A stretch of 64,000 nt of DNA from Branchiostoma lanceolatum (taxonomy: Eukaryota; Chordata; Leptocardii; Amphioxiformes; Branchiostomatidae): positions 11,332,501 to 11,396,500 of the forward strand of contig NC_089735.1 in the NCBI RefSeq assembly GCF_035083965.1, read 5' to 3'. This document shows, piece after piece, positions 24,588 to 64,000 of the stretch. The notes below the pieces were generated by a model, which was not told the DNA's origin, searched no databases, and worked only from the letters and a program-made list of their open reading frames with translations. The position numbers and the translations under genes were made by a program. Position 1 is the stretch's first letter; every line of letters starts with the position of its first letter.

Positions 24588-24729
24588 CTTTTTCGGTGCC
24601 TTTGTCTAAAGATGTCTACCTCTCTTAAAAGTCACCACATCTCCTAATGAAATCACGTTGTTAATGAATCATAGTTACCCCGCTTATCGAATTGGAAAAT
24701 AGACTAATATGCATCATTGATTCTTCGCT

Positions 24730-25093: not shown

Positions 25094-26133
25094 AAATGTA
25101 TCATTCTGTAGAGCTCAAATGGCTGCTTCAACGATATAGAACACTTAACTACAAAAACATTTCTGGCTTGAAGTATCATGGATTTACTTGAGTTTCTTGT
25201 GGTTAAAGAGAGGCATCCATTCAATGAGAAAATGGTCAGTAAACTACTTATACATACGGTACAAACTGAAAAATGAGTCGCCACGTTTTTCGTCGGGAGA
25301 ACAATAGGTTTGGACTTTGACCCGTCAACGACCTCTGGTGGATGACGTGCAGGGCCTTCAAACAGGGCTACGTGTTCTAAGGGGTGTAGAGAATGACTGA
25401 CAGGTGTCAGAAATGATTGACATGTAAAAAACTACACGTACACTGAAAGTGAATAAAAAAAGTCACGAGAGGAAGTTCATTTTTGCAATGCTAATTTACA
25501 TGCGCCGAGCTGTCACAGAAAAGGCTGTGTCAAAGATCGCATCAGTGTTTCGTGTGATATTTTTGACCAACTTAACATATACTTTTTGACTTGCAGAAGG
25601 ACATGCGATGCGCATTAATTCAGAAAAAAACAAAGTAAAACGTTTTAAACCTTTCGTCAAACATAATCAACTCAGACCTGGGTATTGATGAATATTTAAC
25701 TGCACAGAAATGGATGACGTATTTTAAGCACGCGCCCCCATCGTGTTCAACTCGTTCTGGGACTTGTAGAAAAAAATGTTGACGACTACTTTTAGGGTTA
25801 CAATCCACCTGACGACGAGATTTTCGTCTACTGATTGGCATAACCATATACTGTATAAACAATTACTGGCTAAACAGTATCAGTAGTGCTGAATTGGCTA
25901 TTTTAGAATATCTTCCAATGTTCTAAATATATCTGCGACGAGATCTGATTAAAGTTGCTTACACTCATGATTTTACAGATAATGTCAAAATGCATTTCTA
26001 TTCCATGGAATAGGTTCTCAAATACAATTTGTTGGTACAACATTTTGTGCTGATTAGGGTAGTAAATTTAAAGGTTTTGGTTGTTGCTACATTTTGTAAC
26101 ACAGTATACCAGAGTACATCAAGCGTGTATACC

Positions 26134-26895
26134 TTAATCACTGTTCAGACTGTGGTAGTCTTGACGCTTTCTTTCGCTGAAAACAACGTACGCAAAAACT
26201 CCACCAAGCAGCGCTAAGCCGGCAATGACACCAATCACAATTGCTGCAATGTTGAAACTGCTCTTGTTACCCGTGTCCTGAGAGCAGACTTGAGCTGACG
26301 AAAACTTGCCCGACTTGACTCCAAACGGCTGAAGCTGAACTTGACGTGCGATGATGGACACGTCCTTGGTGACGGTGATGTTGACATCGGTGTTACACAT
26401 GTAGGACTTGTCGGCGTCTGCGGAGAAGATGTTCATCGTGTCGTTTGAAACATGTCTGCGGGCGTCGGGGCTCTTAGTCCCGGGAAAGATGGACGGCAGC
26501 TCGGTGTATGAGATCTCGATGGTGGACACGTGGAAGCGACTGACGCTACCCCCTTTCACTGATTTAACGAAGTCGAATGTCACGTTAAAGGTGTCATCGT
26601 GAAACATCAGCGTCAAACTGGAGTCGTTCGAACCACAGAACCCTGTTGTGTTGACACTTTGTGGTAGACTGAACACACCGGTGCCAAATTTCCCGTCATT
26701 TTTTGTGTACAGGATTCTGAACTGCAGGCCCATTTCGGCAATCAGACAAATTTGACCCGTGGTGTTGTCTTTCACTTCAAAGTGGCCTTGTGATGGTGAC
26801 GAGCCGACATTTCCTCGGTGGGAAGTGGCTTCAATGCAGAAGACAAACACGAAAAGCGCAGATGCTGTCAACCAGGACATTTTGGCGCATGACAC
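26134..26895 (-). CDS. LAMP-like protein with one luminal domain (LAMP-like 2)
   Basis: 253 residues in one exon. Signal peptide about 1-24 (KMSWLTASALFVFVF), one LAMP-type domain (about 35-205: SQGHFEVKDNTTGQ, ELPSIFPGTKSPDARRHVS, QVQLQPFGVKSGKFSS), several N-glycosylation sites, a TM helix (about 216-240), and a tail ERKRQDYHSLNSD with YHSL as YxxPhi signal. The domain is closest to the membrane-proximal domain of the neighbours. A single-domain layout is like CD68 or DC-LAMP in outline; orthology is not claimed. The start context (M-S-C-A-K-M-S) resembles M-C-A-K-M-S in the next two genes. Confidence 0.85.
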   Translation of the reverse strand: MSCAKMSWLTASALFVFVFCIEATSHRGNVGSSPSQGHFEVKDNTTGQICLIAEMGLQFRILYTKNDGKFGTGVFSLPQSVNTTGFCGSNDSSLTLMFHDDTFNVTFDFVKSVKGGSVSRFHVSTIEISYTELPSIFPGTKSPDARRHVSNDTMNIFSADADKSYMCNTDVNITVTKDVSIIARQVQLQPFGVKSGKFSSAQVCSQDTGNKSSFNIAAIVIGVIAGLALLGGVFAYVVFSERKRQDYHSLNSD

Positions 26896-27878
26896 GACAG
26901 CCTAATTCCGAAATGTCCGTCGATTTGAACCTGCAAGTAGACACTGAACCCAAGGGGGGCGCGAAGTTATGTTTGCCTACAGAATGGACCATGAACTTTG
27001 AGCAGATCTACCAGCAAAAACAGGTTCATATGTCTGGCCTCCACCTTTATAGATTTACCTATCATCGTCAGGTTGCCTGGCGGCTATGCCAACAAGGGAT
27101 CTTTGCTGAAGATGACCTTGCCAGCCTACGTGCCCTTGTGAGGGTCATGACTTCTTCGTCTAGCGCTTATGACATACCAAAGTTAGGGAGAAGATTTGTG
27201 AGGATAGTTTGAGAAGGTGCCAAGGTTAGAAGAAGTATTGAAAACACCCAAGACCAGATATAAGTTGCAGCATTGTTGTTAGTTTTTAATCAAAGACTGT
27301 GTCTTTGTACAGTGCAGAAAATAAGTCCATCATCTTGTCAACAAGTACAACACCTTTACATCCTTTATCTTTAGGTTTGAGACCATAGGATGGGAGCCGA
27401 ATGCATGGCTAACGTAGTCACATTATCTTACACAATCCTTATATCGCTTATCTTCACTAATAGGATTATAAAATGCACTTTAGACCCATATGCGCAGAAG
27501 GCATCGAGCATCTACGAATGCTGTAAACATATTATTAATAGCTGAATGTAAACATTAGTACGTGACATTCAGCTGCTTACAAAGAAATATGTGACAAAAA
27601 TTACATCTAGATCTGTTCATCAACATCTAGTGTGTAGTAGATCCCTACAAAGTCATTTCTATCTTAAGGTACAAGATACAAGTTCTCAATAGACAACAGC
27701 CAAAACAGTTCCTACTTCGGAATTAAGTTGTTAAAATAAGAAAGAAGCTGAGATTTTCTTACATGCGATGCACAATTTCTATGCGATGCAAGCAACGCCA
27801 ACTGAGAAAACAACAACATTATCAACAATAATAACATCCACGATGTGGACAAGATGAACTTTTACTAGTCGCAAAGCT
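26896..27878. repeat. 3' flank of LAMP-like 3, duplicated downstream
   Basis: From about 27195 (TTTGAGAAGGTGCCAAGGTT) onward this non-coding stretch matches 30805-31670 in the same order, up to the stop of each gene. It shows that LAMP-like 3 and 4 were duplicated together with their 3' flanks. Confidence 0.75.
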
Positions 27879-30008
27879 TTAATTCAGGGCTGTGAACTTT
27901 TGTGGCTTCGCCTTCCTTTTGCTGACGACAATGTAAGCAACGAACACGACAACGACGACCACGGCAACAACAACGCCGATGATAACAGGTACCGTATTGG
28001 TGCCTGAGTCCTCCGAGCAATCTTCAGCTGACGAGAACTTGCCCGACTTGACCCCAAACGGCTGAAGCTGAACATTGCTGACCACGATGGACACGTCCTT
28101 GGTAACGGTGACGTCCACATCGGCGGTACACTTGTAGGACTTGTCGCCGTTTGCGGAGAACATGCTCATCGTGGTGTTTGAAACATGTCTGCGGCGGTCG
28201 GGGCTCTTAGTCCCGGGAAAAATGGAGGGCAGCTCGGTGTACGAGATCTCGATGGTAGACATGTTGAAGCGGCCGACGGTTTTTCCTTTCACGTCTTTGT
28301 CTTTGAGGAAGTCAAATGTCACACTGAAGGCGCCATCGTGAAAATTCAAGGTCAAACTTGAGTTGTCAGATGTACAGAAACCGGTTGCCTTGGCGGTTTT
28401 GGGTAAGTCAAATGTAGCAGTGTGTATCTTCTTGTCAGTCTTTGTGTAATTGACCTTGAACTGCAGGCTCATGTTGGCCAGGAGGCAGACGTGACCTTTT
28501 GTGTCTTTGACCTCGAAGTGACCTTGAGGTGGTTCTTTAGGAGGTCCGGTGGGCTTAGGAGTGGTCATTATGGTCGTAGCGTTCTCGATCGGGACCATGG
28601 TACTGGTCGTGTTTGATGGTTCAACGGTGGTCGCGTTACGAATGGGTACCACGGTAGTATCGTTGGAAGGAAGAATTGTTGTCACGTTGCCAATAGGAGC
28701 CATGGTGGCCGTAGTGGTGTTGACCGCAGGGATGGTGGTGGCGTTTTGAATGGGCATCATCGTCGATGGTAAGTCTTGGGCACACTCGGATGCCTCGCTG
28801 AAGTTCATACTCTTGACCGCGAAGGGTTGAACCTGGAGCTCGGAGACCATCAGACGGACCGTGCTGCCAACGTCGAAGAACTGCAGTGATTTGCACAAGT
28901 ACGACTTGCCGAGGTCCGTTTGGAACATAGACTCTTGCTGTACTTCATTCACTGCTGTCCCTGGAGATGTCGCGTTCGGGAAGTGCTTTGGGTCCCGTAC
29001 GTACCCGACCGAAGCACTGACGAGTTCGAAGCTGTTGTTCCCTTTCGTCTTGAAGGTTACTGTAAGGTTAAAGCCCTTGAAGAAAGAGAGCGCCATGGTC
29101 GCCTTGGAATCACCACAAGCACCCCCGACGGTGCTATTTCGAGGGAGAACGTAGGTGGCGTTACGTGTGGTGTTGTCTTTCAGCTCGTACTCGACATGGA
29201 ACTCCACACCTGCAGACAGCAGGAAACACGCGTTTCCTTTGGTATCATTGAGAGCGAAATGTCCGACAGGGATGAGGGGAGTTATTGGGGTGGTGTGGGG
29301 GACAGGTCCCGGTGTAGTCGTGATGTCGTCCGGGCATGTCTCAGGGGAAGAGAACTTTCCACTGCTGGGAACATTAAAGGGTTGGACTTGGACAGAATGG
29401 ATGGTCAAAGTAGACTTTGGCCTGTCTGGGTGACTGAAGGTGAACTCCAATGTCTGGGGTTTATCACAACGGTACGAATGGGGAGACAAGGCGTTCGACG
29501 ACGTGTAGAAATACTGCTCGTTAGATATTGTAGCACTCGCCGTGGTGTTTGCATCCTTCGCACCGGGAAACATGTCAGGCACGAGTTTGTAGTACAAGGT
29601 GGCACCCGACAGCGAGAAATGAGTTAAGATCACGTTTCTTTCAAATGTAAGTTCTAATCCGAACGTTCCATCCAAACCGAGATCATTAATGTCGCCGAAC
29701 GCGAGGTTCAGGTGGGCGTGTCTTTCGTCGGTGAGATGTGAACAGTCTCCGCTTACCGTACTGTTGGTGGGGAGGGCGAAGGACACGATGGCCGTGGTGT
29801 TGTCCGTCTTGGTGTAGCCCACGTTGAACATGGCGGCGATGTTTAGAAGCAGACAGGGTTCGGGCTTACCGATCAACGGCTTCTTGTTCAACACGAAGTG
29901 GCCTTCGGGAGGAGCGGGCTCGTCCGCCGTTAACCCGACCGAGGCCCGAACGGACGACGCGAACAGAACGACGAGGATTGTCGGAATAAGCGACATCTTT
30001 GCGCACAT
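27879..30008 (-). CDS. LAMP-like protein with three luminal domains (LAMP-like 3)
   Basis: 709 residues from the Met at 30008 (MCAKMSLIPTILVVLFASSV signal peptide); the frame is open 49 codons further upstream but that part looks non-coding. Three LAMP-type domains: about 30-240 (EGHFVLN to QPFNVPSSGKFSS), 246-411 (VGHFALNDTKG to QPFAVKSMNFSEASE), and 494-666 (QGHFEVKDTKG to QPFGVKSGKFSS), the last two separated by a Thr-rich NATT-containing spacer. TM about 670-693. The tail ends SKRKAKPQKFTALN, where Phe stands in the position of the sorting Tyr of its neighbours. Single exon. Likely a heavily glycosylated lysosomal or cell-surface membrane protein. Confidence 0.85.
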   Translation of the reverse strand: MCAKMSLIPTILVVLFASSVRASVGLTADEPAPPEGHFVLNKKPLIGKPEPCLLLNIAAMFNVGYTKTDNTTAIVSFALPTNSTVSGDCSHLTDERHAHLNLAFGDINDLGLDGTFGLELTFERNVILTHFSLSGATLYYKLVPDMFPGAKDANTTASATISNEQYFYTSSNALSPHSYRCDKPQTLEFTFSHPDRPKSTLTIHSVQVQPFNVPSSGKFSSPETCPDDITTTPGPVPHTTPITPLIPVGHFALNDTKGNACFLLSAGVEFHVEYELKDNTTRNATYVLPRNSTVGGACGDSKATMALSFFKGFNLTVTFKTKGNNSFELVSASVGYVRDPKHFPNATSPGTAVNEVQQESMFQTDLGKSYLCKSLQFFDVGSTVRLMVSELQVQPFAVKSMNFSEASECAQDLPSTMMPIQNATTIPAVNTTTATMAPIGNVTTILPSNDTTVVPIRNATTVEPSNTTSTMVPIENATTIMTTPKPTGPPKEPPQGHFEVKDTKGHVCLLANMSLQFKVNYTKTDKKIHTATFDLPKTAKATGFCTSDNSSLTLNFHDGAFSVTFDFLKDKDVKGKTVGRFNMSTIEISYTELPSIFPGTKSPDRRRHVSNTTMSMFSANGDKSYKCTADVDVTVTKDVSIVVSNVQLQPFGVKSGKFSSAEDCSEDSGTNTVPVIIGVVVAVVVVVVFVAYIVVSKRKAKPQKFTALN

Positions 30009-30424
30009 CGTGAACAGGTGTAGTGTTGGTGTGACTCGACTCTCACGTGGGAAGGGGTCAGTCATGGGGGCGTCATCGACATCCTGTTTACTCAAAGTTT
30101 CGGCGGTACTTTGATAAGAACAGGTTGTTTTGAAAGTTAACAAAACAAGTGTCAAACACCAAAAAATCCACGTCCGTAACCTCTAAGCTATCACAAAGAC
30201 CCTACTACTTACTGATATTAAATAATACCAATTATTCAAAAATTTTTAGCGTAAAGAATCTAGCAATCAAGAACTATATATGCCCATTCCTACCCACCTA
30301 TCACATGATGGTTAAGCCCAAACAAACGTCCCCCTCGAGGACAACGACCTTTGAACATTAAGTCATGGTTCACGTGATTCGTCACAGCCGCACCTTTCTC
30401 TGCGGTCATGACCTTTCCGTCTAG

Positions 30425-30780
30425 TTGTTAAAGGCAACCAAAGCAATATTAGGGCCAAAGAATGGAAATAAAAAAAAATGCTGAAATCTTTATGGTAGTG
30501 ACATTTACTAACATTGTTTAGCACATTTGCGTAATAACTTCATACTTTTAGGATTTTAAAACCGCGCAAAATAGTGCCGTACGATGATCCCCTTAGTTTC
30601 GCGAGCCTACAAAACTCCGGCCACGATTTTCAGCGAGTTCTCACATCACAACAACGTCGTCTTTTTGCATCATGGACGTTGTCATACATTGTAATAGTGT
30701 TGTTTGAACTAATCATGTATAGAAATGACTAAATATATTGACTTTCAAAATCCGATTTTTCGGACCCTTATATTGCCTGG
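30425..30780. repeat. Interspersed repeat R1, uninterrupted copy
   Basis: Shares long blocks with 46287-46865, for example ATGCTGAAATCTTTAT, ACGATGATCCCCTTAGTTTC and GTAGTGTTGTTTGAACT-like text. This copy lacks the MITE that interrupts the other. Confidence 0.8.
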
Positions 30781-30798
30781 GTTTCCTTTAAGAGGAGT

Positions 30799-31670
30799 CT
30801 CTGCGAGGACACTTTGAGAAGGTACTAAGGTTAGAAGAGGTAATGAAAACATCACGGACCAGATATCAACTTCATTGTTTGTTTTTAATCAAACACCGTG
30901 AATTCTCCTTTGCACAGTGTAAACTAATAGCAGAGCAAAGCCCATCAGCTTGACAATTATCTGTACATCCTCTATTTATAAGTTTGAGACAATAGAATGG
31001 AATGTAATTTCATGGATAATGATAAGTTTATTGCAAATTCATGCCCGTAGGCTAATTGCATGTTGACAGCAGTGTCGAAGTACAAATGTAAAGTAAAGCA
31101 AAAGGTATATATGTAATACAAGATCATACTACATGTATATTGCTATTCTACAGTAAGTTTCTATATCTACGGTACTAATGCGGGGTTTGCTAATGTTGAT
31201 ATGCTACCATACACAATATCAATTTTGCTTGTCTTCTCTAAGATCTCGATGTACTTTAGACCCAAATGTACAGAAAACATCGACCGTGTGTTAATGCAAT
31301 GTACATATACCTCAGTTTGAAGAGTTCTGAATGATAATTCTCAATACAAACATCAAGTGACATCGAGCAGAAATCACAGACATATTCTACTGATGAGCAA
31401 TATACGTCTTATAGCATCTCCAAATAAAACGTTACATTTCTATTTCTCAAATTAGATATAAGATATTTTGGTTATAGGTTGGGACAAAGTAAAAATGCTG
31501 AAAAAACTAGATCAAATGGATGATGTTCAACCACTTCTAAACAGTTTCTTACGTCTACGGTTTAAGCTGTTGTTGACATAGTTATATATAAGAAAGAATA
31601 TATTCGAAGCTAAGACTTTCTTACAGTGTTGCAAGACGTGGACAAGATGAAATTGTACCAGTCGCAAAGC
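30799..31670. repeat. Duplicated 3' flank of LAMP-like 4
   Basis: Counterpart of 27195-27878. It carries an extra insertion near 31010-31150 beginning with TTATTGCAAATTCATGCCCG, a repeat tail also seen near 17990. Confidence 0.7.
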
Positions 31671-32396
31671 CTAATTCATGGTTGTTAGGTTTTCGGCATT
31701 CTCCTTCCTTTTGCTGGCGACAATGGTGTCCGCAGTGGTGTTGAGTGCAGGAAAGGTTTTGGCGTCTTGAATGGGCATCTTTGACGATGGAGGGTCTTGG
31801 GGGCACTCGGAAGCCTCGCTGAAGTTCATACCCTTGACCTTGAAGGGTTGCACTTGGAGCTGGACGACTCCCAGCTTGACCGTACTGCCAATGTCGAAGA
31901 CTTGAAGTGACTTGCACAAGTACGACTTACCGAGGGCCGTTTTGAACGGAGACTGGCCGTCGGTCTTTTCTTCATTCGCCGCTGTACCGGGAGATGCCGC
32001 ATTCGGGAAGAGCTTTGGGTCCCGTACGTACCCGACCGAAGCACTGGCGATCGCAAATTTTCTGTCATTTCTATTCTCGAAGGATATGGTGAGGTTGAAG
32101 CCTTTGAAGAAGGAGAGCGCCATTGTTGCCTCATACTCACCGCAATCACCACTGACGGTGCTGTTTCGAGGGAGAACGTAGGTGGCGGTCCACGTGGTGT
32201 CATCTTTCAGCTCATACTCGACTTGGAACGTCACACCCACAGACAGCAGAAAGCACGGGTTTCCTTTAGTATCATTGAGGGTGAAGTTGCCTACAGGTGG
32301 AGCGGGTCCGTCCGCCGCGAACCCTACTGAGGCCCGAACGGACAACACGCACAGGACGGTGAAGATGGTTGGAATCAGCGACATCTTTGGGCACAT
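31671..32396 (-). CDS. LAMP-like 4: single domain, transmembrane segment deleted
   Basis: 241 residues from the Met at 32396 (MCPKMSLIPTIFTVLCVLSV signal peptide); the frame opens three codons earlier. One LAMP-type domain (about 32-205: VGNFTLNDTKG, VGYVRDPKLFPNA, QPFKVKGMNFSEASE) that matches domain 2 of LAMP-like 3. The spacer that follows (MPIQDAKTFPALNTT) then joins directly to SKRKENAENLTTMN, the equivalent of the cytoplasmic tail. The third domain and TM helix are missing through an in-frame deletion, apparently at a short ATGG/AATGG microhomology. The product should be secreted, or the gene is decaying, but the frame is intact. Confidence 0.8.
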   Translation of the reverse strand: MCPKMSLIPTIFTVLCVLSVRASVGFAADGPAPPVGNFTLNDTKGNPCFLLSVGVTFQVEYELKDDTTWTATYVLPRNSTVSGDCGEYEATMALSFFKGFNLTISFENRNDRKFAIASASVGYVRDPKLFPNAASPGTAANEEKTDGQSPFKTALGKSYLCKSLQVFDIGSTVKLGVVQLQVQPFKVKGMNFSEASECPQDPPSSKMPIQDAKTFPALNTTADTIVASKRKENAENLTTMN

Positions 32397-32897
32397 CGAG
32401 AACAAGTGATGTTTTCGTGTGGCTCAACTCTGGTGTGACAGGCAAGCTGGTCTGTTACGCCGAAGAGCGGTTATACAAGCTTTATAGATACAGATCACGA
32501 GAGGTGAGGTCGATGGGGGCGTCTTCGTCATGTCTGGTTACTTAAAGTTTCGGGGTTCTTCCATCAAAACAGATTGTTTTGAAGGGTAACAAAAGAAGTT
32601 ACTACATCCGAACATCCACAAAGATCCGTTTGCTGGTATGACATGATGACAACCATCAAAAGATTTATCCGAAAATTGCCTAGCAGGTAACTACTGCATG
32701 TCTACTCTACACATACCTACCTGTCGGATGGTGGTTAAGCCTTAACAAACGTCCATCCAGAGGACACGGACTTTTGATCATTTCACATTAGGCTTTAATT
32801 AACTAGGTCAACGCATGTCATACACAGTTGTTTTTGTTTGACCGCCGCAAGTCGCTATCGAGGAAAACAAGAAGGCGAACTAAATTTAGATAAGGTT

Positions 32898-41500: not shown

Positions 41501-43129
41501 TATTTGTCAAAACTGTATACCTGCTATGCCGGCATTGTTGATCAGTACGTCAAGTTGAGGTTCTCCATTGCAGATTTCCTCGGCAAAAGTCCTGACAGAT
41601 GCCAGCTTACTCATGTTAACCTCCTTCACAATCACATCAGTGTTTCCTGCAGGTTGACAAAGTTCATTCTTTGTACACAACGAGAGAGTTGATAACTTAC
41701 GTCAACATTTTGGTGACCACCTGTCACCTTCCTCAGGGCAATACTGACTGGTTCTACTTAGCACTGCAGCTAGGTGTCACTGCTACAGTGTGAAGAATGC
41801 AGTCCCAAACATGACTGAGTTGTTATCCCCTTCCTCACACATTGAGTTTATTACTCGCCTTTAAGGTTTAATCCAGCAACTCCAGTCATGCACTGCACAA
41901 TGATGAGGGAGGGATACAAACTTGCTCACCTTTAGCATTCTTCTGATAAAAGTATTCAGAGGAGTGTTTCCTGCGGAAAATGGGGGACTTATCTGCATAC
42001 AATGTTACCGTATACTGTTATACATTTAATGATACCTTTGCTGGAATACACAAAGCTTGATCAATATCAATAAAGACAAAACTTACGATCTGACTCAAAT
42101 GTAAAACTGGGCTTTGCTTGAGCTTTTGTAGAGTCCATTCAATTTGTTAATTTGAAAATAGTTTAGAATCCCCCATTTGGAATCTCACTTTTTAATTATA
42201 TAATCCATGTTTGCAAACTACAGTAGTTTGCTTGATGCTGCTTGTAACTTATCCTTCCCTCATCTTGCCCATAACTGTCACTTGATGTATGCTGTACCTA
42301 AATTTTTTGATTGCGTGCACCAGTGCACCTATTTCCAAAAATGAATTTTGAGCCCTCCAGTATCCCTTGGTACAACATGTAAGTTAAATTATTAGGTTAC
42401 CTGTGACTTTGATGATGTCATCTCTGGCTGCTTCAGCCTTGTTCTTGTTACGACACGCCAGGATAACCCGGGCATGGTGGCGAGCAAGTTCAAGGGCGGT
42501 GGCCTTACCAATACCTGAGGGTGAAAGAAATAATGACTGTCAGACACTTTTGATGGCAACAACTTTGGATGTACAGAATTGTTAATGCATTTAAATTAAC
42601 ACTGTTTTTATTTCGCGGTAGGGAGAAAATTGAGTGTTTGCGGTGGTTTTAAGTTCTCATTTGAAACGATAGTAGCGCTACAGTCGTGGGGTGGGCAAAA
42701 AGTTTTGCGGTGGTTTTAAGTTCGTGCTGAAGAGTTCACCGCGAAAAGGGTGAACATAAAACCACCGCGAACATTTTTGTATTATTTACAGTACAGTATT
42801 TCAGTCACATGCAGCTCGTATACTATGTTATAGTTTATAATCACTGATTTTTATGTGAAACCTGTACATTATTATTGCAAAGTCATTATGTGATACACTA
42901 GTTGTACAATTACAAACAAACAAAACAATAAAGTGGCTTCAAATACTAGGTAATCTAATCATTGCATTTATCAATGATTGAAAGACTCGCCTGTGTTAGC
43001 CCCGGTGATGATCACAGTTTTGCCCCTCATATCTGCTTGGCTCTGACAGTAGCCAAACCGGCCAGTCCACCATTTCTGCAGCACCACAAGTAAGACCACC
43101 ACCAGCAGCAGAACAACATACCATTCCAT
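38550..43129 (-). CDS. Retinol dehydrogenase 11-14-like short-chain dehydrogenase (7 exons)
   Basis: Exons in transcript order: 43129-42991, 42514-42401, 41646-41521, 40728-40636, 40071-39886, 39413-39304, 38729-38550; total 948 nt, 315 residues. An N-terminal hydrophobic anchor (about 4-17) suggests ER or mitochondrial membrane attachment. NADP(H)-binding TGANTGIG at 42-49, NNAG at 121-124, Ser172/Ser173 in IVNVSS, catalytic YCDSK (Tyr198, Lys202), then [10 protein letters not shown] and a C-terminal SERLTGL. This is the classical SDR catalytic set, and length and exon style match RDH11-14, which interconvert retinol/retinal and other lipid aldehydes. A TTTTTTTCAG acceptor just upstream of the ATG implies a non-coding first exon. 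Intron 1 has donor GCGAGT, not GT; the phase leaves no GT choice. Head-to-head with TTC12. Confidence 0.93.
39490..39720. repeat. Degenerate GATCATTGA repeats in the RDH intron
   Basis: About fifteen loose units such as GATCATTGGA, GACCATTGAGA, GATCATTGAAAA, GATCGTTGGC. Same flavour as 11575-11700. Confidence 0.65.
40150..40215 (+). repeat. Dispersed CCTTCCTCAGGGCAATACTG repeat family
   Basis: A ~65-bp unit (TTGGTGACCAYCTGTCA ... TTCCTCAGGGC ... CTGGTTC ... CTGCAGCT) occurs here and at about 41705-41770, 47972-48040 and 52910-52965, always plus strand. Confidence 0.7.
40309..40400. repeat. 19-bp minisatellite, about 5 copies
   Basis: AAGGTTTGGTGTTGCGGAC repeated head to tail, the last units slightly altered. 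Confidence 0.9.
42571..42797. mobile_element. MITE of the CTGTAAATGCA family (RDH intron 1)
   Basis: Contains TTTTTATTTCGCGG near one end and AAAACCACCGCGAACATTT near the other, the inverted subterminal text shared with 46433-46617 and 48205-48379. Its own tips are eroded. Confidence 0.6.
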
Positions 43130-43960: not shown

Positions 43961-44159
43961 CTTTAATACTGTTAATTAATAATATAAGGTTAACAGTATG
44001 CCTGAAAGGAAATATGACAAGTTTCGTAGAGGTGCAACAGATTACACAAAAACTAATAGTCTAAGTTAATTGATTATTATAACAAGGAGGTTTTACAGAA
44101 GTCTATTTTGGGTCGATTTTCATCCGAAAAGGGATCTAAGAGGGTCTGCATGCCCTTTT

Positions 44160-46016: not shown

Positions 46017-49000
46017 ATGGCGGACAAAAACACTTCGAAAGAAGAACTGGACAAGTTTCTTCAAAATGTGGACGATATCCGTAAGTTTTATACCTTCTAA
46101 GAATGTAGTTTGTAAGAGTACATGACGGAGCTCTGTTTTTATGATAATTAATTCGCGCACACAGACGTTGGATTGACGTTTCAAACTTCTTTTGTGATGC
46201 AATGTTGTATATTTGGGGGAGGGGGGCACCGTCGCTTGCGGAAGTTTCTAGACGTTTCACGGCCATGCAAGACGCTTCGACGTCATTTAAGGCAACCAAG
46301 GCAATATATCAGGGACCTAAGAATGAAAATTCAAACAAAAAATGCTGAAATCTTTATTGTTGTGACATTTGCTAAACAGTCCTACCTGACCGAAAATTCT
46401 ACTCTACTCTACTCTGTCTAGTGTCTAGCATACTGTAAATGCATTTAAGTTTGCGTGGTTTTTATTTCGCCCTAAGGCGAAATGGAGTGTTCGCGGTGGT
46501 TTTAAGTTTGCGGCAGTGCTATATAATCACATACTGCTACAGTATTGGACAAAAATGTTTGCGGGTGAAACGAAAACCGGGAACATAAAACCACCGCGAA
46601 CATTTCTGCATTTACAGTATTTGTGTAATAACTTCATACTTTGAGCATTCTAAAACCGTGCAAAAACATGCCATACGATGATCCCCTTAGTTTCACGAGC
46701 CTACAAAAACCCTGGCGACCATTTTCAGTGAGTTCTCACATTACAACAAAGTCATAATTTTGCATCATGGACGTCGTCACGTCGCTATAAATGTTGTGGT
46801 AGTGTTGTTTGAACTGATCATGTATAGAAATGACTGAATAAATTGACTTTCAAAAGCCGATTTTGCCTTTGAGATAGGACGCATGTACAGTAACACTACT
46901 TTCATCCTAGGCCTAATTCAGAACCCTGACAAGATCTATTTACATATTTGGCTTTGATTGTATCTACCAACTGCACACTTGATCATGACGGTGAATCGTC
47001 GAAGGTGATTAACGCCTTGGCCCGACAGAGTGTCTTTGCGAAAATTAATGTTATAATATGTAGAATCATGTCCCTATACCCTTGCGGTGCTTGGTTGAAA
47101 ATGAGCAGAACTCATTCCCCAACTCCATTCACCACATATAAAAATTCTACATCATAGCCTTTTCCGTAAGCCCGGGGTAACTGAATACACAAGTCGTGAT
47201 AATCATTGCGCTTTTAACATGAAAGCATCATCATGCATATGTTCATTATGTTCTCTTCTGTTACGAGGTTCCACGTCACTCTCATACTTACATAACTGTA
47301 ACATATTCGATACTGTTCATGCTTACATCCACTCTACAGGCAGATTCACTTAATGATAAATAACAACTTGTAATGTCTATTGTTATTTTCCTTTTATCCA
47401 TTTTGTATTTATGCATGTCATTATGTCTCTTTGTTGTATGTGTTGAGTAGAAGGCTTCAGATAAGCAATCGCTTCCTGCCTAAAACTCAGTAAACATATG
47501 CGAATAGAATAAAATAAAGCATCATCTTTCACCTCAAATTAGCTGTTGATTGCTTTTTACCTTTCTTATTCCCAGAGTCCATCATCAAGGGAATGGCATC
47601 TGGGGATGCGGAGGCCCAGCAGAAAGCTTGTAAAGCTGCAGATGAGAAACTGGGGAAGATTAGGAGAACGCCTGTGGACAACACTGGAGTTAACAAAACT
47701 GTCATCAATCAGAGGGCCTTCGACGAGCTGGCCAGGGGACAGCAACAGGTAGTGCACATCTGGAAATAGTCAAAGTATTTTTTTTGTTTCCACTGACTGA
47801 ATAATTTCATGAGGTTGGAGAATCACTGGATAACTAGGTTCTTTATTCACAACCAATGTATGTCAAGTACGTACAATGCCTAGAGTCCTCAACTTAATGA
47901 GGTTAAGCATGTAATAACAAAGAAGAAAATAAAGAAGAAGAAGAAGACCAGGACATACAATCACAGCTGTCATGACGTTTCGGTGACTGTCTATCACCTT
48001 CCTCAGGGCAATACTGGCTGCTACATGTACACTCACTGCAGACTAGGTTTTATTTTTGATAATGATTATTCTTGTATAAATGGCAATACTTTACGTTTGG
48101 ACCACATTTATTACAGTACTTTATGTTTGGGACCTACTCGTAGCCTGCAGTGTAGAAGAGTACCAGTCAGTATTTGTCACCAAAACGTTGGGTGGGTGTG
48201 TAAACTGTAAATGCAGAAATGTTCGCTGTGGTTTTACATTTGTAGCTTTCTGCCCACCTATGACTGTAGTGCTACTATGTTTCAAACGTGAACTTAAAAC
48301 CACAGAGAACACTCCATTTTCTCCCTACCTCGAAATAAAAACTATGCAAACTTAAGAAAAAAGTTAAATGCATTTACAGTATCTTCCACTTTCCACTGGC
48401 TTTTTATTTATCAGACCCGTGAACTTATGTTAGCATTTATCATTTAGTTGATAGAATTCTAAAATTATTTGATTCTAAGATTGTATTGAATTGTGATATT
48501 GATATGGTTGTTTTTAGTTGATGTTTTTATTCCTTTATTTCAGGGACCTCAAGCTGCTGGAGAAATGGGCCAAGGTATTATCAATGATGTATTATTGGTT
48601 ATCAATTATTCAGTCAGCAGAATATTATCTATGAATAAAAAATCAATTTATATTTATCAATAGATACATGTAGGTAATGAAACTGGAATTTAGAATATTT
48701 GTTACATAAAAGATATATACAAATGTAGCTAAGATTAATGAAATACTTGATTTTGAATGCTGATGAAAGAAGTACAAAATACATGTAATACTCATAATGA
48801 TAAACAGGAATGTGTGGTATATATGATTGTGAAACCTGCTGGGAGTACATGTATGTGTACACATGAAATTGGACTACGTTACAGGCATAAAAGATGATGA
48901 ATTAGACACACCCTAGAAACCCTACTTGAAGATCTGCCATGTGTGATACTTGGAAGTCATTTATTTTTGTGAGGACTTAATTTTGGGCTAGGAGGGGAAA

Positions 49001-49335: not shown

Positions 49336-52300
49336 GTGTTGACCTACAGAAGCCTTCATGGACTTCATTGAGAAGGATGCAGCTGAGAGAGCAGCGAGGA
49401 AGAAGGAACAGAAGGACGAGGCCACGGCACTTAAGGAGGAGGGCAACAAGGCCTTCAAGGCTGGAGACTTCCAGACTGCCGTGGCCTTCTACACTCAAGG
49501 CTTGGAGAAACTGAAAGACTTCAAGGAACTGTGGACTAACAGGGCTCAGGTACTTTTACTTTTAGTCTAGATCTTCAGCACTTTATACCACTGTTAAAGA
49601 TCTGTACTAGCGGCAAAAATTTCCCTTTCTGTCTGTTGAAGAATCATTAATCTATGAAGCTTACAGGCCACATGTTGTCTTTTCACATCTCTAGTTGGAT
49701 CTTTGAATCATGTATGCGTTTAAGACAGAAAAAATGTTGATGTATGGTGCATAAGAGTTGTTGTTAGTGTTCAGATTTTTACTAAGTACGGTAGGGGCCT
49801 CTTCATTAGAACGCTTCAAAATGCAGTTAGAGTTAGTATGAGTATCTAGTTTTGATGCGACAAGTCGTTTAATATTGGTTGACAAACTCAGATGAATTAG
49901 ATTTAGCGGGTTGTTGAAATGATTTTTCTTCATTGCCCTGTTGTGTAATAGGCATTCATCAAACTAGGACAATACGATGAAGCTCTCTCAGACTGTGACT
50001 GGGCAATGAGGGTGAGTATTGTAATATTGATGATTGTTAGGTACTAAGTAAGGTAAAAAAGGTAAAGCAGTCATCCTCAATTGAGGTGAAGCATGATGCT
50101 TTTTCAAGTAGCTATAGTGGTAGTGCAATGCGGCTTCGCCACGGCTCGCGTTTTTGACCAAGCACACCGGGTCACCCCTACTCTTTTTGATAAGTGTATT
50201 GGGTTCTTTTACGTGCAGAGGTTTGATGCTTGAGGCTTATGCCCAAAGCTCCCTCATACACGAGGCCTCCGGCTTTACGTCACCATCCGAAATGATGAAT
50301 GCAATCCCTTACAACATGTCCGAGCTGGAGATAACCCTAGGATCGAACTCAGGCCCCAGGATCCACGGAATTTGATCCAGATGGCGAAGCGGCAGGGTTG
50401 CTTACTGCTTGTGCCATGGGGACATGCCTACTATTTGAACATAGCTTTATGTTATGTGGAAGTAATTTTTTTGTGTGCAAGCTCTTTTCTTTCTCATCTG
50501 CACCTGTGCACATTTATGAAATAATGTACATGTAAATGGACCCCTGTTTATGATCCAGGAACTTACATGTATGTGTCAAGAATGTCAGATATGCATGGCA
50601 GTTTCATTCAATTTGGCAAAATAATAACTCATATTCTTTATTGTCAATATGTAGTGTGATGACAAGTATGTGAAGGCTTACATACACAAAGGCAGGGCGC
50701 TGGTAGCCAAGAAAGAGTATGACAAGGTAGGATACATCCATGAATTGTATTATCACAGGATGTTGAAGGTTTCTTGTACATACAAACTATCAAGTTCTTA
50801 GTAATACATTTTTTACAGCAGTTACTACATACCTGGCAGTGCCAAAATTTTGTTACTCCTTCTGCTATATGCTACCTTGCTCAGGTTATAAATAATATAA
50901 TGGCTGGCATAATGATGATATCAATATCTGGCAAAGATCTTAGGATTTTTGGGAAAAGATCTGACAGGTCAACTTCAGTGTAAAGTTATTTTCTAAATTT
51001 TGAAAGACAGATGCTCTCAACTCATTACTGAATGTATGGCAAAGTTACATCAAGGAGGTTTTATCCTTGGTAACATTCTATGATTGCCATTTACATAAAA
51101 AGATCTGTGGCTGGATACCGGTATGTATTCATAGGCTCAAGGTTTCAAGGGACTGTTTTTACAAATCTAAAGTCAGTTAACTAATTATCTATATGCCATA
51201 TTTTCATAATGTTACATATTATTTTGCACTTCTTCATCCAGGCATTGGCAACTTACCAAGAGGCACTGAAGGTAGATCCAAAGCAAGAAAAAACTGTCAA
51301 TGGTGAGTATAAAATGGTGTACATTGTATTTAGTGATGAGAAATATCTTTTTAAAATCCAGACCTGCCATCATAATCATAGACTACAAGATGAGTGAAGT
51401 AAAGCAGTCTTTTGAAATACATGTACACAATTTTGTGAAATTGAATTGTATTATTAGCTGTAGTGTATACCACTACACTTATTTTGCATCTTAATATTCT
51501 TAAAAGATATGTACCTATAATCAATCTAATAAATAACTAAAGTGATAAATCACAGATGTCACAGAAACAAAATTTAACTTCAGTGGACAAGGAATTAATG
51601 ATTATGACAACAAGTCTTTTCTTCCCAGCTTACATCAGAGACTTGAAGACAGCTAAAGCAGTTGAGGAGGAAGAGGAGAAGGCTAAGGAACGGATTGAGA
51701 GTGGAGACCAGGAGGCAGAGGGCGTGGTGGAGCTTTTAAAGAGAATCAGACAGCCAAACAAGCCGGTGATTTTCTACACCGGAGGACTGAAACTGCTGAC
51801 GATGTTCCTTAAAGACTGCACTGAAGACAGTGAGCACATAAAGTTTTCTTGATTGGACCTTTGTTTATTCACGAAAAGCCCAAATTGGCTTGCAGGCCGC
51901 TTTTTGTTGAGATCATGGTCAGACAAAATATAACAAAGGTGCAGATTACATAAATCCATAAACATAAAGTGTAATTATAGAGTTGCTTTAGTAACTACTT
52001 TTAGCGTATCTTATTACCTGGATGTCTAAATTTCATCAACGTATAGTAAGAGTGGAATACTAAACATAAAACAGTGAAAGTTGGCATTCGAATTTGCTTA
52101 TTCCTGTAAATGTAATAGCTATTATCTTTAACGGATATAGGATCAAGCATGAACTCATGAGGATTGTACCTAGGCTTATTGTATTTCAATGAAACTGTGC
52201 TTGATGTAGTCTAATGCACATGGTTTGTGTGATTTTGTGTTGATTGTGCACATCATTTCTTCCACAGAACACACTGCCCAGACTCTGTTCCGCACATGCA

Positions 52301-56810: not shown

Positions 56811-57327
56811 TATAAGGGTTTTAAGAATTACACCCAACGGCCATGGTATCGAATCGCCGCAAATATCGCAATGCATCATGGGTAATTTTAAGAGGGTCTG
56901 TCTGTAATTATACCTTGTAGCAAAGGACAAAATGTCGATTTTTTTTAAATTTTGGGTGGTGGTAAGGCCTTGGTCCAATTGTAGAAATATGGGTAAGTTT
57001 TGGGTTAACTGGTGGTCACCGGTTGCCATGGAAACGGTCACTTTTTAAAAGACGGCGGATTTCTATCCGCAAAGGCTCAATCTCGTCCAGAATAAACCAT
57101 CTTTAGCCTACAGAAACGCCACCTAAGGCCACAGCAAGTAAATTTTATGGATGACATCCTCCGCAGACTCCAAAATTAATGAGATAGGGCGAAAAAAACA
57201 AAAGGCGGGCCCCCCAAAAAAAGATTCCTATATTTTCACATTTTTAGATCATAAGTCTTGTTAAACAAGAATTGAGGCGACGAAATATGATATCATGACC
57301 AACAGGTCTTTTATTCCTGTATTCAAC

Positions 57328-57362
57328 CAATGAGGTTTCATATATGATATAAAACCTCCTTG
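57328..57362. mobile_element. 35-bp palindromic micro-insertion with 7-bp duplication
   Basis: A near-perfect palindrome with arms CAATGAGGTTTCAT and, inverted, CAAGGAGGTTTTAT. ATTCAAC directly flanks it on both sides (57321-57327 and 57363-57369). Confidence 0.8.
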
Positions 57363-57372
57363 ATTCAACAGT

Positions 57373-60300
57373 TACCTATTCTTTCCGCGCAGCGATTGAC
57401 TCATCCATATGAAGCTATGGGGTAGTGCCTGGAGTCGCGCGGCGATGTGATTCATGCCTATTTGTGACAAAAAGGGGGGCGGGTGGGCGGGAAGGTCTTG
57501 GTGTATTCACCGACCCTCGTCTTGCTCCGTATCATTACTCCCGTCACCCCTCCCCACCATCTCTTTCCTATCGTACCTATCGCCGGGTCACCAGGCTATG
57601 CGGATGAGTCTGTCGCTTCAGTGGAGTAAACAGTCAGTTTTCGCCTTATATAGATTGGGTATATGGATCAGCCAATCACAGCGCAGGAAAGATAGTTACC
57701 TATTCTTTCCGCGCAGCGATTGACTCATCCATATGAAGCTATGGGGTAGTGCCTTACGTCGCGCTCCTCCTTTTCCTTCACAACCTATTTTCCATTTGTT
57801 TTTTCCCCTTTCCTATTTTCTCTTTCTTCCCAATCTCATCTTTCCCAATCTCATCTTTCAATTACCTATTAACTATTCCTTCTCCCTTTTCCCTAACTTC
57901 ATTTCTTTATCTTCTTACTCAACATATGTCCCGGTCGTTATATTCAACCAACTACCAGAGTACATCTAGACACTTAAGACGCATGTGACAACATTCTTTA
58001 TTTCATCTCCCCAATCTCCCAGTCTGATATATATATATATAATCATTATCCGGCCCAATTTCATCTATCCTGAGAGTCAAACACTGACTCCACTGCAACA
58101 CTTTATTGTTCACACAATTTCACATGGTACAACACAATGTCTAATTCACATCATCACACGAGTAACCATCCTTGTGGCTTGGGTAACCTTTCTTGTGCAA
58201 GTATAAATGATTTTGTTTCAGATAAATCAACCATATGCATTTCTTATTTCAACATTGCCACCGTCTATTCATTCAATTACATATATGCACCACATACATA
58301 TACCAGATTCTCACATTCGTTATTCCGTTCCGTCCATTTCTTATTTCTTATTGAATCTTACGACAGTTACTCGTCCGTTATCTTCACCTTAACAGAGTAT
58401 TCACTTTTGTTCAAATCGGCTTTACAGTTACTTACAAAATGACCAAAACCATAGCATCTGAAGCATCTATCCAAAGGGCGGGCATTTTAAAAGTTGTTCC
58501 CTCAGACGGCGGGAACACGTTTGTGGAAAACGCCGGCTGTGGAATTCTGAAACGCCGGCTGTGGAAACGTTCTGCTATGACCCTCGCCCTTTGCTGTATC
58601 TACCGACTCCTCCATCATGGCGCTAGCTTTCCTTGGGTTGCATACGCTACCAATACTTCACTGAATTCGAAGTGATGCAATTCTGCCACATATGGCCTGT
58701 AATATTAAATGAAACGAAGTTTTAGAGGCGTGCCATTCACCCTCTTTTTCATCACCACGCTAACGACGTTTCATACCGTCCTGGTAAATTAATTACCATT
58801 ATACTAGATTACTACACCACAGGTGTGTCGCACATGTTCAAATCGGCGTTCTATGTTATTTGCATATCTATGGGCCATTCCCACTTTCATCGGCGTACTC
58901 CTGCCGTTTTGTCTGATACAATCATTACACGCCATGTCCACAAGCACGGGCCATTCCCGTGTGCTATATGTTTACTGTATCAAACCTGCACCTCTTGCAG
59001 GAAACAAACGTCCATTTATGATACCAATTCCTCGATTTACGACCGGGTCCACTACCTCTGGTCTTGACTGGCTTATCAACAATGCAGATTCAAAATTACA
59101 CACACACGAAGTACCAAATGTAACGCCAGAAATACCATTATAGTATTGTGTTGACAAGTAACCAATGCTAATCTGAATTACCGCCTTGACAACTATGATC
59201 CCGAGCGGGCGGCAGCCCTGTCCCTATTTGCTGCGGTCACCTCCGCCGCGTGGTGCGAGTGCCCCCGGCTGACCGACGCTTGGGGCTGAGTGTCCTCCGG
59301 CTTGCTGCGCCCGGCCGCACCTGGTCCCTGCATGTGTGCCCTGTGATGCTTGCGATGCTCGGATTCAGTTGCCAGCCGTTGTCTTGAGTCTGTTGTTTGC
59401 TTCCTCCAGCTTTGTCACCTCCCGGTCGACCTCCTGGTATAGTCCCTGTGACATTTAAGACAACAATACCAAAATTAGATATCCAGCGCTACTGAGGCCT
59501 ACTATCACTCATAACCACACATACTGCCCGAGCATGCCAGCTCGCCTGCGAGAAGAGCAGACCTCAGCATGACGAAAAGCAATGCACGTGCAAACGACAG
59601 ACAACTCTCACACACAATCCGTACATACCAACGCTTCCAATTCCATTATATCCAGAAAATTTGACCAGAAAACACCGTCAAATTTCAGAATCACAGCATA
59701 ATTCAACTTTCTATACTCCCTGAGACCGTAATGTCCTTCCTGAGACTTCACGCAGACACAGAGTTGGGCACAAAACGATCTGTCTTGCACGTGCTGTCCG
59801 CCCCTGGGAGCACCGGACGCTGGACCAGTCTCTGGGGATGAGTCTGCTGGTGCGGTGTTATATTGCCTTGACGAGCTGGCGGTAGCCCTATGCCCGCTTG
59901 CTGGTCACCGGCTCTCCACGTGGTACTCCCGGCTGACCACCGTCCTGTGACGGCGCTTGCACTTGGGGCTGCCCTCCAGCTTGCTGCACGGCCGCGACGA
60001 GCGCTGCTTCTGGTTGCGGTGCCGCTATTTCGCCGTCGGTATTCTGTTGTTATCTTCCCCCTCCAGCCTGGTCATGTCCGGGCGGGTTTTGTACCACCTG
60101 GGCTCCCCAAACCTGGTTCCCGGCGGGGGGTTGCCCTGCTCCCGGTATAGCCGGTACCTGTGACATCTACAATAATATCACAATTAGATATCCATCTCTA
60201 CTGAGGCGTGTTACCACTCATAATCACACATATTGCGCGAACACACCTCGCCTACGAGAAGAGCAGACCTCAGTATGACGAAGGCAATGCACGTGCAACG

Positions 60301-60615
60301 ACAGACAACTCACATACCAACGCACCCAATTTCATTATCTCTCAGAATTCCAACTCAAAACACCACCAAAGTTATCCCTTTTCCAAAATTATAGCAAAAT
60401 CCAACCTTCCCTACTCCCTGAAAAACTTCGCGTGGACACAAACTTCGGCAAAAAGCGGTCTGTCTTGCACGTTCTTCCTGGGCGGTCCGACGGAGCTCCT
60501 AACGCCGTACCAGGCTGTGCGGACGAGTCTGTCGCTTCAGTGGAGTAAACAGTCAGTTTTCGCCTTATATAGATTGGGTATATGGATCAGCCAATCACAG
60601 CGCAGGAAAGATAGT
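57373..60615. repeat. Tandem pair: 322-bp short unit and ~2.9-kb long unit
   Basis: TTACCTATTCTTTCCGCGCA starts at 57373 and again at 57695. A ~105-bp end block (CAGTCAGTTTTCGCCTTATA to GCGCAGGAAAGATAG) closes the first unit at 57694 and recurs at 60508-60615. The first unit therefore looks like an internally deleted form of the second. No coding function assigned. Confidence 0.7.
59190..60480. repeat. Two ~650-bp diverged tandem copies
   Basis: 59190-59810 and 59860-60480 share order and wording: CCCGGCTGACC, TTAGATATCCA, GAGAAGAGCAGACCTCAG, ATGACGAA, GCAATGCACGTGCAA, GATCTGTCTTGCACG-like end. On the minus strand each has an acceptor-like AG near a short charged frame (LYQEVDREVTKLEEANNRL and DMTRLEGEDNNR), perhaps a remnant exon pair. 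Too short and broken to call a gene. Confidence 0.6.
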
Positions 60616-60649: not shown

Positions 60650-61060
60650 AGACAGTACAACAAATGCAGAAAAGAGCTTGTTGTACCATCATCTGAACCA
60701 ACTACAATGGGTATTCATATGCGATGAATCACCTTGTATATACAGTTCAATTAACTAGACCCCCCCCCCCATTATTTATATGTCCTTGCTAGAACAAATG
60801 CAGAAAACAGCTTGTTATCATACCATCATGGGCAGGAACCACACTGCGTATTCATATGCAACGAAACACCTTAGACTGTCAACATTAAACTGTTCTTGCG
60901 TAATTGTACACAACTCAATTAAGTAGAACAAACGCAGAAAACAGCTTGTCATACCAAGGAGGTTTTATATAGATATATAAAACCTCCTTGGTCATACCAT
61001 CATGGGCAGGAACTTCACTGGGTATTCATATGCAATGAAACACCTTAGACTATCAACGTT
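60650..61060. repeat. Three ~135-bp tandem copies
   Basis: Units with ACAAATGCAGAAAACAGCTTG ... CATACCATCATGGGCAGGAA-like text begin near 60655, 60790 and 60925. The third is interrupted by the 36-bp palindrome. Confidence 0.8.
60955..60990. mobile_element. 36-bp palindromic micro-insertion with 7-bp duplication and paralogous empty site
   Basis: Starts CAAGGAGGTTTTATAT and ends with its inverse, broken only at the centre. GTCATAC flanks both sides (60948-60954 and 60991-60997). The second tandem unit (near 60815) shows the same region without the insert. Confidence 0.85.
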
Positions 61061-61449
61061 TACGACACATTTGCCCATTTTTGGCATGTTGACCACCGTC
61101 GAAGGGCAATGAAAATTCTTGTTTTTTATTTCGAAATCAGGTGAAAATTAATGAGCGCGCTGATGTCATCCATAGAAATTACTTGCTGTGGCCTAACTAG
61201 AGGGACAACATTTGCGAGCAAATGCAGAATGTTAACCTTCACTTGGTGTTTACGTTTCGAACAAGGAAGGATAAGTTGTTTTATTTAGTTGGATAATTCA
61301 AAAAGGGACGAATGAATGCTCATAAATTTCTACCTGTAAGGGACGTTGATGAAGACGAACAACATGGTTGCATAATGTGCACAATCAATAAGGAAGATTT
61401 ATATTTCAATAAAATACTCACTTACATGACAAAAGGTCAGGCTCAAGAG

Positions 61450-64000
61450 CATGGTTCCTTAATATTCATGAACATTCATGAACATTCATAATTTTTCCTA
61501 AATATTCATGAACGTTCATGAAAATTTATGAAATTCATAAACGTTCATGAATGTTCATGAATTTTCATGAATTTTTATGAATTTTAATGAATTTTCATGA
61601 ACGTTCATGAATTGTCATGAATTTTCATAAATTTTCATGAACGTTCATGAATTTTCATGAATTTTCATGAACGTTCATGACTTTTCATGACTTTTCATGA
61701 ATTTTCATGAATTTTCATGAATTTTCCTGAACGTTCATTGAACTTTCATGAACGTTCATGAATTTTCATGAATTTTCATGAATTTTTATGAATTTTCATG
61801 AACGTTCATGACTTTTCATGAATTTTCATGAATTTTCCTGAACGGTCATTGAACTTTCATGAACGTTCATGAATTTTCATGAATTTTCATGAATTTTTAT
61901 GAATTTTCATGAACGTTCATGAATTTTCATGAATTGTCATGAATTTTCATGAACGTTCATGTACTTTCATGAATTTTCATGAATTTTCATGAATTTTCAA
62001 GAATTTTCATGAATTTTCATGAAATTTTCATGAATTTTCATGAACGTTCATGAATATTTATGAATTTTCATGAACGTTCATGAATGTTCATGAATTTTCA
62101 TGAATTTTTATGAATTTTCATGAATTTTCATGAACGTTCATGAATTTTCATGAATTTCATGAATTTTCATGAACGTTCATGAGAATTCATGAATTTTCAT
62201 GAATTTTCATCAATTTTCATGAATTTTTATGAATTTTCATTAACATTCATGAATTTTCTTGAATTTTCATGAATTTTCTTGAATTTTCATGAACGTTCAT
62301 GAATTTTCTTGAATTTTCATGAATTTTCATGAACGTTCATGAATTTTCATGAATTTTCATGAATTTTCATGAACGTTCATGAGAATTCATGAATTTTCAT
62401 GAATTTTCATGAATTTTCATGAATTTTCATGAATTTTTATGAATTTTCATGAACGTTCATGGATTTTCCTGAATTTTCCTGAATTTTCATGAACGTTCAT
62501 GAATTTTCATGAATTTTCATAAATTTTCATGAATTTTCATGAATTTTCATGAATTTTCATGAATATTTATGAATTTTCATGAACGTTCATGAATGTTCAT
62601 GAATTTTCATGAATTTTTATGAATTTTCATGAATTTTCATGAACGTTCATGAATTTTCATGAATTTTCATGAATTTTCATGAACGTTCATGAGAATTCAT
62701 GAATTTTCATGAATTTTTATGAATTTTCATGAACGTTCATGAATTTTCCTGAATTTTCATGAATTTTAATGAACGTTCATGAATTTTCATGAATTTTCAT
62801 GAATTTTCATGAATTTTCATGAACGTTCATGAATTTTCATGAATTTTCATGAATTTAAATGAATTTTCATGAATTTTCCTGAACGTTCATTGAACTTTCA
62901 TGAACGTTCATGAATTTTCATGAATTTTCATGAATTTTTATGAATTTTCATGAACGTTCATGACTTTTCATGAATTTTCATGAATTTTCCTGAACGTTCA
63001 TTGAACTTTCATGAACGTTCATGAATTTTCATGAATTTTCATGAATTTTTATGAATTTTCATGAACGTTCATGAATTTTCATGAATTGTCATGAATTTTC
63101 ATGAACGTTCATGTACTTTCATGAATTTTCATGAATTTTCATGAATTTTCATGAATTTTCATGAATTTTCATGAATTTTCATGAACGTTCATGAATTTTC
63201 ATGAATTTTCATGAATTTTCATGAATTTTCATGAATTTTCACGAAAATTCATAGATATTCATGAACGTTCATGAAAATTCATGAAAATTCATGAAAATTC
63301 ATGAAAATTAATGAAAATTCATGAACGTTCATGAATTTTCATGAATTTCCATGAACTTTCATGAACTTTCATGAATTTTTATGAATTTTCATGAATTTTC
63401 ATGAACGTTCATGACTTTTCATGAATTTTCATGAATTTTCATGAATTTTCATGAATTTTCATGAATTTTCATGAACGTTCATTGAACTTTCATGACATTC
63501 ATGAAAATTCATGAATTTTCATGAATTTTCATGAATTTTCATGAATTTTCAAGAATTTTCATGAATTTTCATGAAATTTTCATGAATTTTCATGAATTTT
63601 CATGAACGTTCATGAATTTTCATGAATTTCATGAATTTTCATGAACGTTCATGAGAATACATGAATTTTCATGAATTTTCATCAATTGTCATGAATTTTT
63701 ATGAATTTTCATTAACGTTCATGAATTTTCATGAATTTTCATGAAATTTTTATGAATTTTCATGGATTTTCATGAACGTTCATGAATTTTCATGAATTTC
63801 ATGAATTTTCATGAACGTTCATGAGAATACATGAATTTTCATGAATTTTCATCAATTTTCATGAATTTTTATGAATTTTCATTAACGTTCATGAATTTTC
63901 TTGAATTTTCATGAATTTTCTTGAATTTTCATGAACGTTCATGGATTTTCCTGAATTTTCCTGAATTTTCATGAACGTTCATGAATTTTCATGAATTTTC
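61450..64000. repeat. 10-bp-period palindromic satellite (TTCATGAATT/TTCATGAACG)
   Basis: About 255 units of ATGAATTTTC type, with ATGAACGTTC units every few steps, run to the window end. TTCATGAA (palindrome) sits at nearly every unit junction and GAACGTTC is a second palindrome. There is a higher-order pattern: a block with CCTGAACGTTCATTGAAC and CATGTACTTTC at about 61726-61975 recurs at about 62878-63125, 1152 bp later. No gene. Confidence 0.95.

Follow-up and report, generated by a model that had tools for sequence, protein, structure and literature searches.

A 35-36-bp palindrome with 7-bp flanking duplications in Branchiostoma lanceolatum, likely a mobile element of little more than two inverted tips

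A palindrome of 35-36 bp is present in two full copies in a stretch of 64,000 nucleotides of Branchiostoma lanceolatum DNA (hereafter the window, numbered from its first letter), and each copy lies between exact direct repeats of 7 bp. The element is real and unusually small, and it is likely mobile. We consider it probable that the palindrome represents a non-autonomous DNA transposon which retains only its two terminal inverted repeats and is moved in trans by a predicted hAT- or P-like transposase encoded elsewhere. The two copies, designated A and B, and their flanking repeats are as follows:

57321-57327, plus strand: left target duplication of copy A, ATTCAAC, an exact match to 57363-57369
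57328-57362, no strand assigned: copy A, palindromic element of 35 bp whose outer 14-bp arms are mismatched at two positions
57363-57369, plus strand: right target duplication of copy A, ATTCAAC, 7 bp
60948-60954, plus strand: left target duplication of copy B, GTCATAC, 7 bp
60955-60990, no strand assigned: copy B, element of 36 bp with perfect 17-bp arms and the centre GA
60991-60997, plus strand: right target duplication of copy B, GTCATAC, 7 bp

A preliminary description had reported two palindromes with perfect 7-bp flanks, and both its coordinates and its sequences were confirmed at the two sites. The tips of the palindrome carry CAAGGAGG, in the terminal form CAAGGAGGTTTTAT, with CAAGG as the outermost bases. 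In the arms of copy A the fourth pair from the end is mismatched while the first three pairs are perfect. When copy A was aligned with the reverse complement of copy B, 32 of the 36 alignment columns were identical. The centre of copy B is A/T-rich, the 20 bp from the GG of one arm to the CC of the other containing a single G. Folding of a single DNA strand together with its flanks gave a strong hairpin for copy B (z -9.15; none of 200 shuffles was as good) and a weaker one for copy A (z -2.39; 6 of 200 shuffles as good).

Palindromes were counted between positions 1 and 61450 as intervals of at most 80 bp in total, with outer arms of 14 bp that contained no more than two mismatches and in which the first three pairs were perfect. 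The minisatellite at 61451-64000 was excluded because it gives rise to trivial palindromes with direct repeats. This region (61450-64000) consists of units of about 10 bp, TTTTCATGAA-like as judged by eye, and contains long imperfect inverted arms. Forty-five intervals were obtained, three of which were of low complexity and were dropped; the remaining 42 represented 15 clusters. Direct repeats of at least 5 bp flanked only two of these 15 non-simple clusters in 1-61450, namely copies A and B, with 7 bp each. One hundred second-order Markov sequences of equal length, which unlike the palindrome set of the real window were kept without a complexity filter, contained 7.1 palindrome clusters on average (12 at most) and, across all 100 sequences together, two intervals with flanking repeats of at least 5 bp. 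A chance origin of palindrome and flanks was rejected on this comparison of two in 15 real clusters with two intervals in 100 simulations. Taken by themselves, exact 7-mer repeats were found at 8 of 61,390 positions at a spacing of 36 bp and at 100 of 61,390 positions at a spacing of 35 bp, the latter count probably being inflated by tandem repeats.

The site occupied by copy B lies in a tandem unit for which the window also contains a sibling without the insertion:

60790-60886, plus strand: sibling tandem unit, a paralogous empty site for copy B, which aligns to 60924-60952 and 60992-61060

Segment 60924-60952 aligned to 60790-60818 at 93% and segment 60992-61060 to 60818-60886 at 91%. Since both flanking segments align to one continuous tandem unit, the sibling is uninterrupted at the position of copy B. 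The unit that contains copy B measures 137 bp and its sibling, which is a paralogue and not an allele, 97 bp. The net difference is 40 bp rather than 43 bp owing to a 3-bp discrepancy of the sibling at the junction. No empty relative of copy A was found within the window; the right duplication of this copy adjoins a 71-bp repeat (57370-57440) that occurs again at 57694-57764 with 96% identity. The claim made earlier, that the palindrome behaves as a mobile element with 7-bp target duplications, thus gains support from two insertions, from the different duplications that flank them and from the uninterrupted sibling unit of copy B.

How far the two copies can be regarded as independent depends on their surroundings. 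The immediate flanks of A and B are without clear similarity; in the four comparisons of the 160-bp flanks 95, 6, 5 and 63 of 200 shuffles scored as high. The neighbourhoods of the two sites are nevertheless not wholly unrelated, and this counts against the independence of the copies. A 33-bp segment at 57126-57158 recurs in inverted orientation at 61162-61194 (31 of 33 positions identical), about 170 bp outside each copy, the position expected had the whole region been duplicated in inverted orientation. Because this segment is common to both neighbourhoods, we considered whether one copy of the palindrome had arisen from the other through an inverted duplication. Such an origin is opposed by the different 7-bp repeats and by the dissimilar immediate flanks. 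Nor is there a clear resemblance in the sequence between the 33-bp segment and the copies (10 of 200 shuffles reached its score), and a further repeat shared by the two neighbourhoods, 57576-57696 and 60498-60615 (94%), is in direct orientation. In view of the dissimilar intervening sequence, the wrong orientation of the latter pair and the difference between the 7-bp repeats, the 33-bp segment was taken as a dispersed repeat. The repeats at 57370-57440, 57694-57764, 57576-57696 and 60498-60615 form a dispersed family of half-arms with a head-to-head form (57661-57734).

In addition to the two full copies, the window contains a shorter version of the palindrome and a single tip:

51044-51050, plus strand: probable left duplication of the 19-bp copy, GTTACAT
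51051-51069, no strand assigned: probable internally deleted copy of 19 bp, an exact 14-base tip followed by CCTTG
51070-51076, plus strand: probable right duplication of the 19-bp copy, GTAACAT, matching at 6 of 7 positions
44083-44095, plus strand: lone 13-base tip with no recognisable partner, a relic or the end of a longer relative

The sequence at 51051-51069 is probably a third insertion which has shrunk to 19 bp. A CCTTG end at a distance of 19-65 bp, combined with flanks that agree in 6 or all of their 7 bases, was found at 6 of 63,900 window positions; three of these belong to the palindrome family's own copies and the other three lie outside the family. That such a combination of end and flanks should fall by chance on 51051, where the tip is exact, is unlikely. 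The flanks of the 19-bp copy are complementary to each other (GTTAC/GTAAC), and because they can pair, the single difference between them might be a one-base change templated by a hairpin. Downstream of the tip at 44083, a search over 8 kb did not turn up a convincing partner with a matching flank, and the sequence that follows the tip is non-palindromic.

The preliminary description had left open whether the palindrome is a minimal MITE or the product of internal deletion of a larger element. The second possibility can be put in a form in which the 36-bp version never moved: an element of greater length bearing these tips would have inserted, duplicating 7 bp of the target, and its interior would afterwards have been lost at the site, either through slippage over the hairpin or through an abortive excision followed by gap repair. 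The 19-bp copy, which suggests internal loss, would agree with such a course of events, and the tip at 44083, which runs into non-palindromic sequence, might mark one end of a longer relative. Independent deletions would however not be expected to yield lengths of 35 and 36 bp and the agreement between the two copies noted above, and a longer element with two such tips was not found in the window. The nearly identical length and centre at two sites thus favour movement at 35-36 bp, an argument that is of moderate weight because the A/T-rich centre is low in information. We regard shrinkage in place as an improbable origin of copies A and B. The two alternatives in the preliminary description are separated only in part: movement at this size is favoured for the full copies, while shrinking too seems to have occurred, as suggested by the 19-bp copy.

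Two further explanations dispense with transposition altogether. Hairpin-prone sequence can be copied during repair, and the palindromes could be templated insertions produced by end joining of double-strand breaks with a fill-in of 7 bases and no transposase. The strong hairpin of copy B is in line with this idea. Repair would be expected to yield variable lengths, whereas the copies combine a common outer sequence with different flanks, have exact symmetric ends and show a 7-bp stagger twice; we consider templated insertion very unlikely. The palindromes could also be read as conserved hairpins with a regulatory role or as sites of protein binding, to which the perfect 17-bp arms of copy B would be suited, with the direct repeats being coincidental. 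This is scarcely credible, given that exact 7-bp repeats flank both copies and that the sibling unit is uninterrupted. A search of 40000-64000 against Rfam at gathering score gave no matches, which neither supports nor excludes a regulatory hairpin.

If the palindrome is a transposon moved in trans, its transposition may proceed as follows. Each arm of 14-17 bp would constitute a binding site for the predicted transposase, which, supplied from elsewhere, would bind the tips, excise the element and join it to the target. The cuts would be staggered by 7 bp at a dyad-symmetric target of the form NTNNNAN, and filling of the gaps by host repair would generate the 7-bp duplications, of which the repeats themselves are observed. 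The A/T-rich centre would act only as a hinge. The shortness of the element is a mechanical objection to its mobility. A duplex of 36 bp is too stiff for the usual joining of its own two ends, and for this reason a kinked or melted centre, or pairing between the ends of two copies, is proposed; extrusion of a cruciform might likewise bring the ends together. Once inserted, a copy may lose its middle in the manner suggested by the 19-bp copy. No autonomous element and no longer relative with the same tips was recognised in the 64-kb window. Nor, on non-systematic inspection, was a transposase found there. The number of full copies, two, is likewise a count for 64 kb only.

The proposed target is based on the duplications ATTCAAC, GTCATAC and GTTACAT, all three of which share T as the second and A as the sixth base, although the third site is only probable. 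Among random triples of 7-mers from the window this combination occurred at a frequency of 0.00057, and any invariant dyad pair at 0.0037; these values have to be read in the light of a motif that was noticed after the fact, in three sites of which one is only probable. In a comparison that was also made after the fact, the three sites scored 3, 5 and 3 of 6 against GTANTAC, the target of the Galileo transposon, and random triples reached their sum of 11 at a frequency of 0.0014. With the other flank of the 19-bp copy the sum rises to 12, for which the random frequency is 0.00026. The three targets are compatible with hAT- or P-like transposases.

In its anatomy the palindrome is a MITE, three of the five defining features having been tested and all three having been found. 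These are terminal inverted repeats (17 bp and perfect in copy B, with two mismatches in 14 bp in copy A), a constant duplication (7 bp and exact in both full copies, matching at 6 of 7 positions in the probable third one) and the absence of coding capacity at 35-36 bp. It shares with MITEs its non-coding nature, the terminal inverted repeats, the constant length of the duplication and an A/T-rich interior, but it differs from them in having a length of only 35-36 bp and nothing beyond two tips. The typical size of MITEs is about 80-600 bp. Mar and Vege measure 610 and 884 bp (PMC3517528).

Among the superfamilies that might supply the transposase, hAT elements resemble the palindrome in ends that start with CA, in short terminal repeats and in a target with T second from one end and A second from the other (three of three sites, one of them only probable). 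The end CAAGG fits the terminal motif rule YARNG of hAT elements. The hAT element Hermes has the target nTnnnnAn and terminal repeats of 17 bp (PMC10368747), and the ends of the hAT MITE Mar read CAG(G/A)GGTAGGC (PMC3517528). As a rule, however, hAT elements generate duplications of 8 bp (PMC3942097). This feature was tested and both full copies showed 7 bp instead, and therefore the palindrome was not filed under hAT. One source gives a command for extracting hAT families annotated with a 7-bp duplication, which is no proof that such entries exist (PMC4455052).

Duplications of 7 bp are made by Galileo, a member of the P superfamily, at the target GTANTAC (PMC4168063), which is also given as GTAGTAC (PMC2775673). 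Going by the description of duplication and target, Galileo (of the Galileo/1360 group) recalls the palindrome in the length of 7 bp and in a dyad-symmetric target with T as the second and A as the sixth base. The agreement of the three sites with GTANTAC is partial, and the P superfamily is a tentative assignment. Copies of Galileo, in contrast, measure hundreds of base pairs to kilobases and have terminal repeats of up to 1.2 kb. Within the same superfamily, the P elements and P-MITEs of Anopheles have a duplication of 8 bp (PMC1562414).

Dada elements produce duplications of 6-7 bp, and the family Dada-1_BF is present in Branchiostoma floridae (PMC3706591); duplication length and occurrence in B. 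floridae are the points of likeness to the palindrome. According to the same source, terminal inverted repeats were not found in Dada, and copies with clear ends lie in small RNA genes (PMC3706591). Dada was ruled out, since the palindrome is wholly an inverted repeat and no Rfam family reached the gathering score in 40000-64000. The duplication of Kolobok is the 4-bp TTAA, that of KolobokP is 3-5 bp long (PMC9587614). Tc1/mariner, piggyBac and Kolobok, with their TA or TTAA duplications, were ruled out by ATTCAAC and GTCATAC. Amphioxus also possesses the LanceleTn set of MITE families, whose likeness to the palindrome, judged by description, is that of a common host group. An insertion of LanceletTn-2 is mentioned in the literature (PMC5802833).

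A published description of the palindrome was not found among the matches listed, which comprised titles and the openings of abstracts, with Repbase and subscription journals outside the scope; this does not prove the palindrome to be unpublished. The first eight bases of the tip, combined with transposon terms, were absent from the papers among the matches listed. The one full-text match to four forms of the tip, in a paper on NirD and RelA of E. coli, was taken as unrelated. Searches of viral contigs and prokaryote genomes gave no matches to the palindrome. With a looser pattern three loci were obtained in viral contigs, two of them with identical surroundings; their loops are unlike the lancelet centre and they were set aside as unrelated hairpins. 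A protein search with the open frame that crosses copy B yielded no candidate at a threshold of three shared five-residue words and a suitable length. This result says little because only word-sharing proteins of fitting length are detectable in this way.

The finding bears on the minimum length of DNA transposons. We tentatively put forward the possibility that a 36-bp duplex of two bare tips moves as a unit in an animal by means of an A/T-rich hinge or an extruded cruciform, and that it marks the lower size limit of cut-and-paste transposons, served by a transposase that, with a stagger of 7 bp and the target NTNNNAN, would stand between the hAT and P types. Should the copies really be mobile at 35-36 bp, a spacer between transposon ends would be dispensable. 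To our knowledge, this is not what standard models of the paired-end complex lead one to expect. Were this correct, such elements would likely be missed by repeat annotation aimed at longer units, and they could seed hairpins across lancelet genomes. Lancelet genomes have been described as very polymorphic and as containing many kinds of transposable elements (PMC4284660).

Other inverted repeats are present in the window. A perfect hairpin of 34 bp at 20924-20957 has arms of 15 bp and a loop of 4 bases, and its direct repeats are no longer than 2 bp. It may represent a 30-bp element flanked by TA duplications, or a mere hairpin; no second copy of its tip occurs in the window. MITE-like inverted repeats with the tips GTGGTTTTA...TAAAACCAC are located at 42707-42768 and 48226-48305, in both cases without a flanking repeat of at least 5 bp, and a similar tip lies at 46585.

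The window's own proteins belong to an 18.5-Mb contig, likely a nuclear chromosome. The protein-coding content of the window includes a 587-codon open reading frame on the plus strand (18105-19868) with many HSGETTLLRLKPGSEEDV repeats. Its Pfam matches are weak; TOBE_2 passes the cut-off with no single stretch being significant. On the minus strand, 21567-32423 contains a cluster of LAMP-like genes. Two of its open reading frames were scanned against Pfam and both had Lamp2-like luminal domains, one of them also containing a long NGTTIPPTEIPIG tandem repeat. The LAMP-like protein encoded at 26134-26901 is closest to Branchiostoma proteins, among them a protein with the label B. floridae x B. 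japonicum at 74% identity. For the kinase at 3166-4380, the nearest seven relatives after itself are Branchiostoma proteins with identities of 40-48%.
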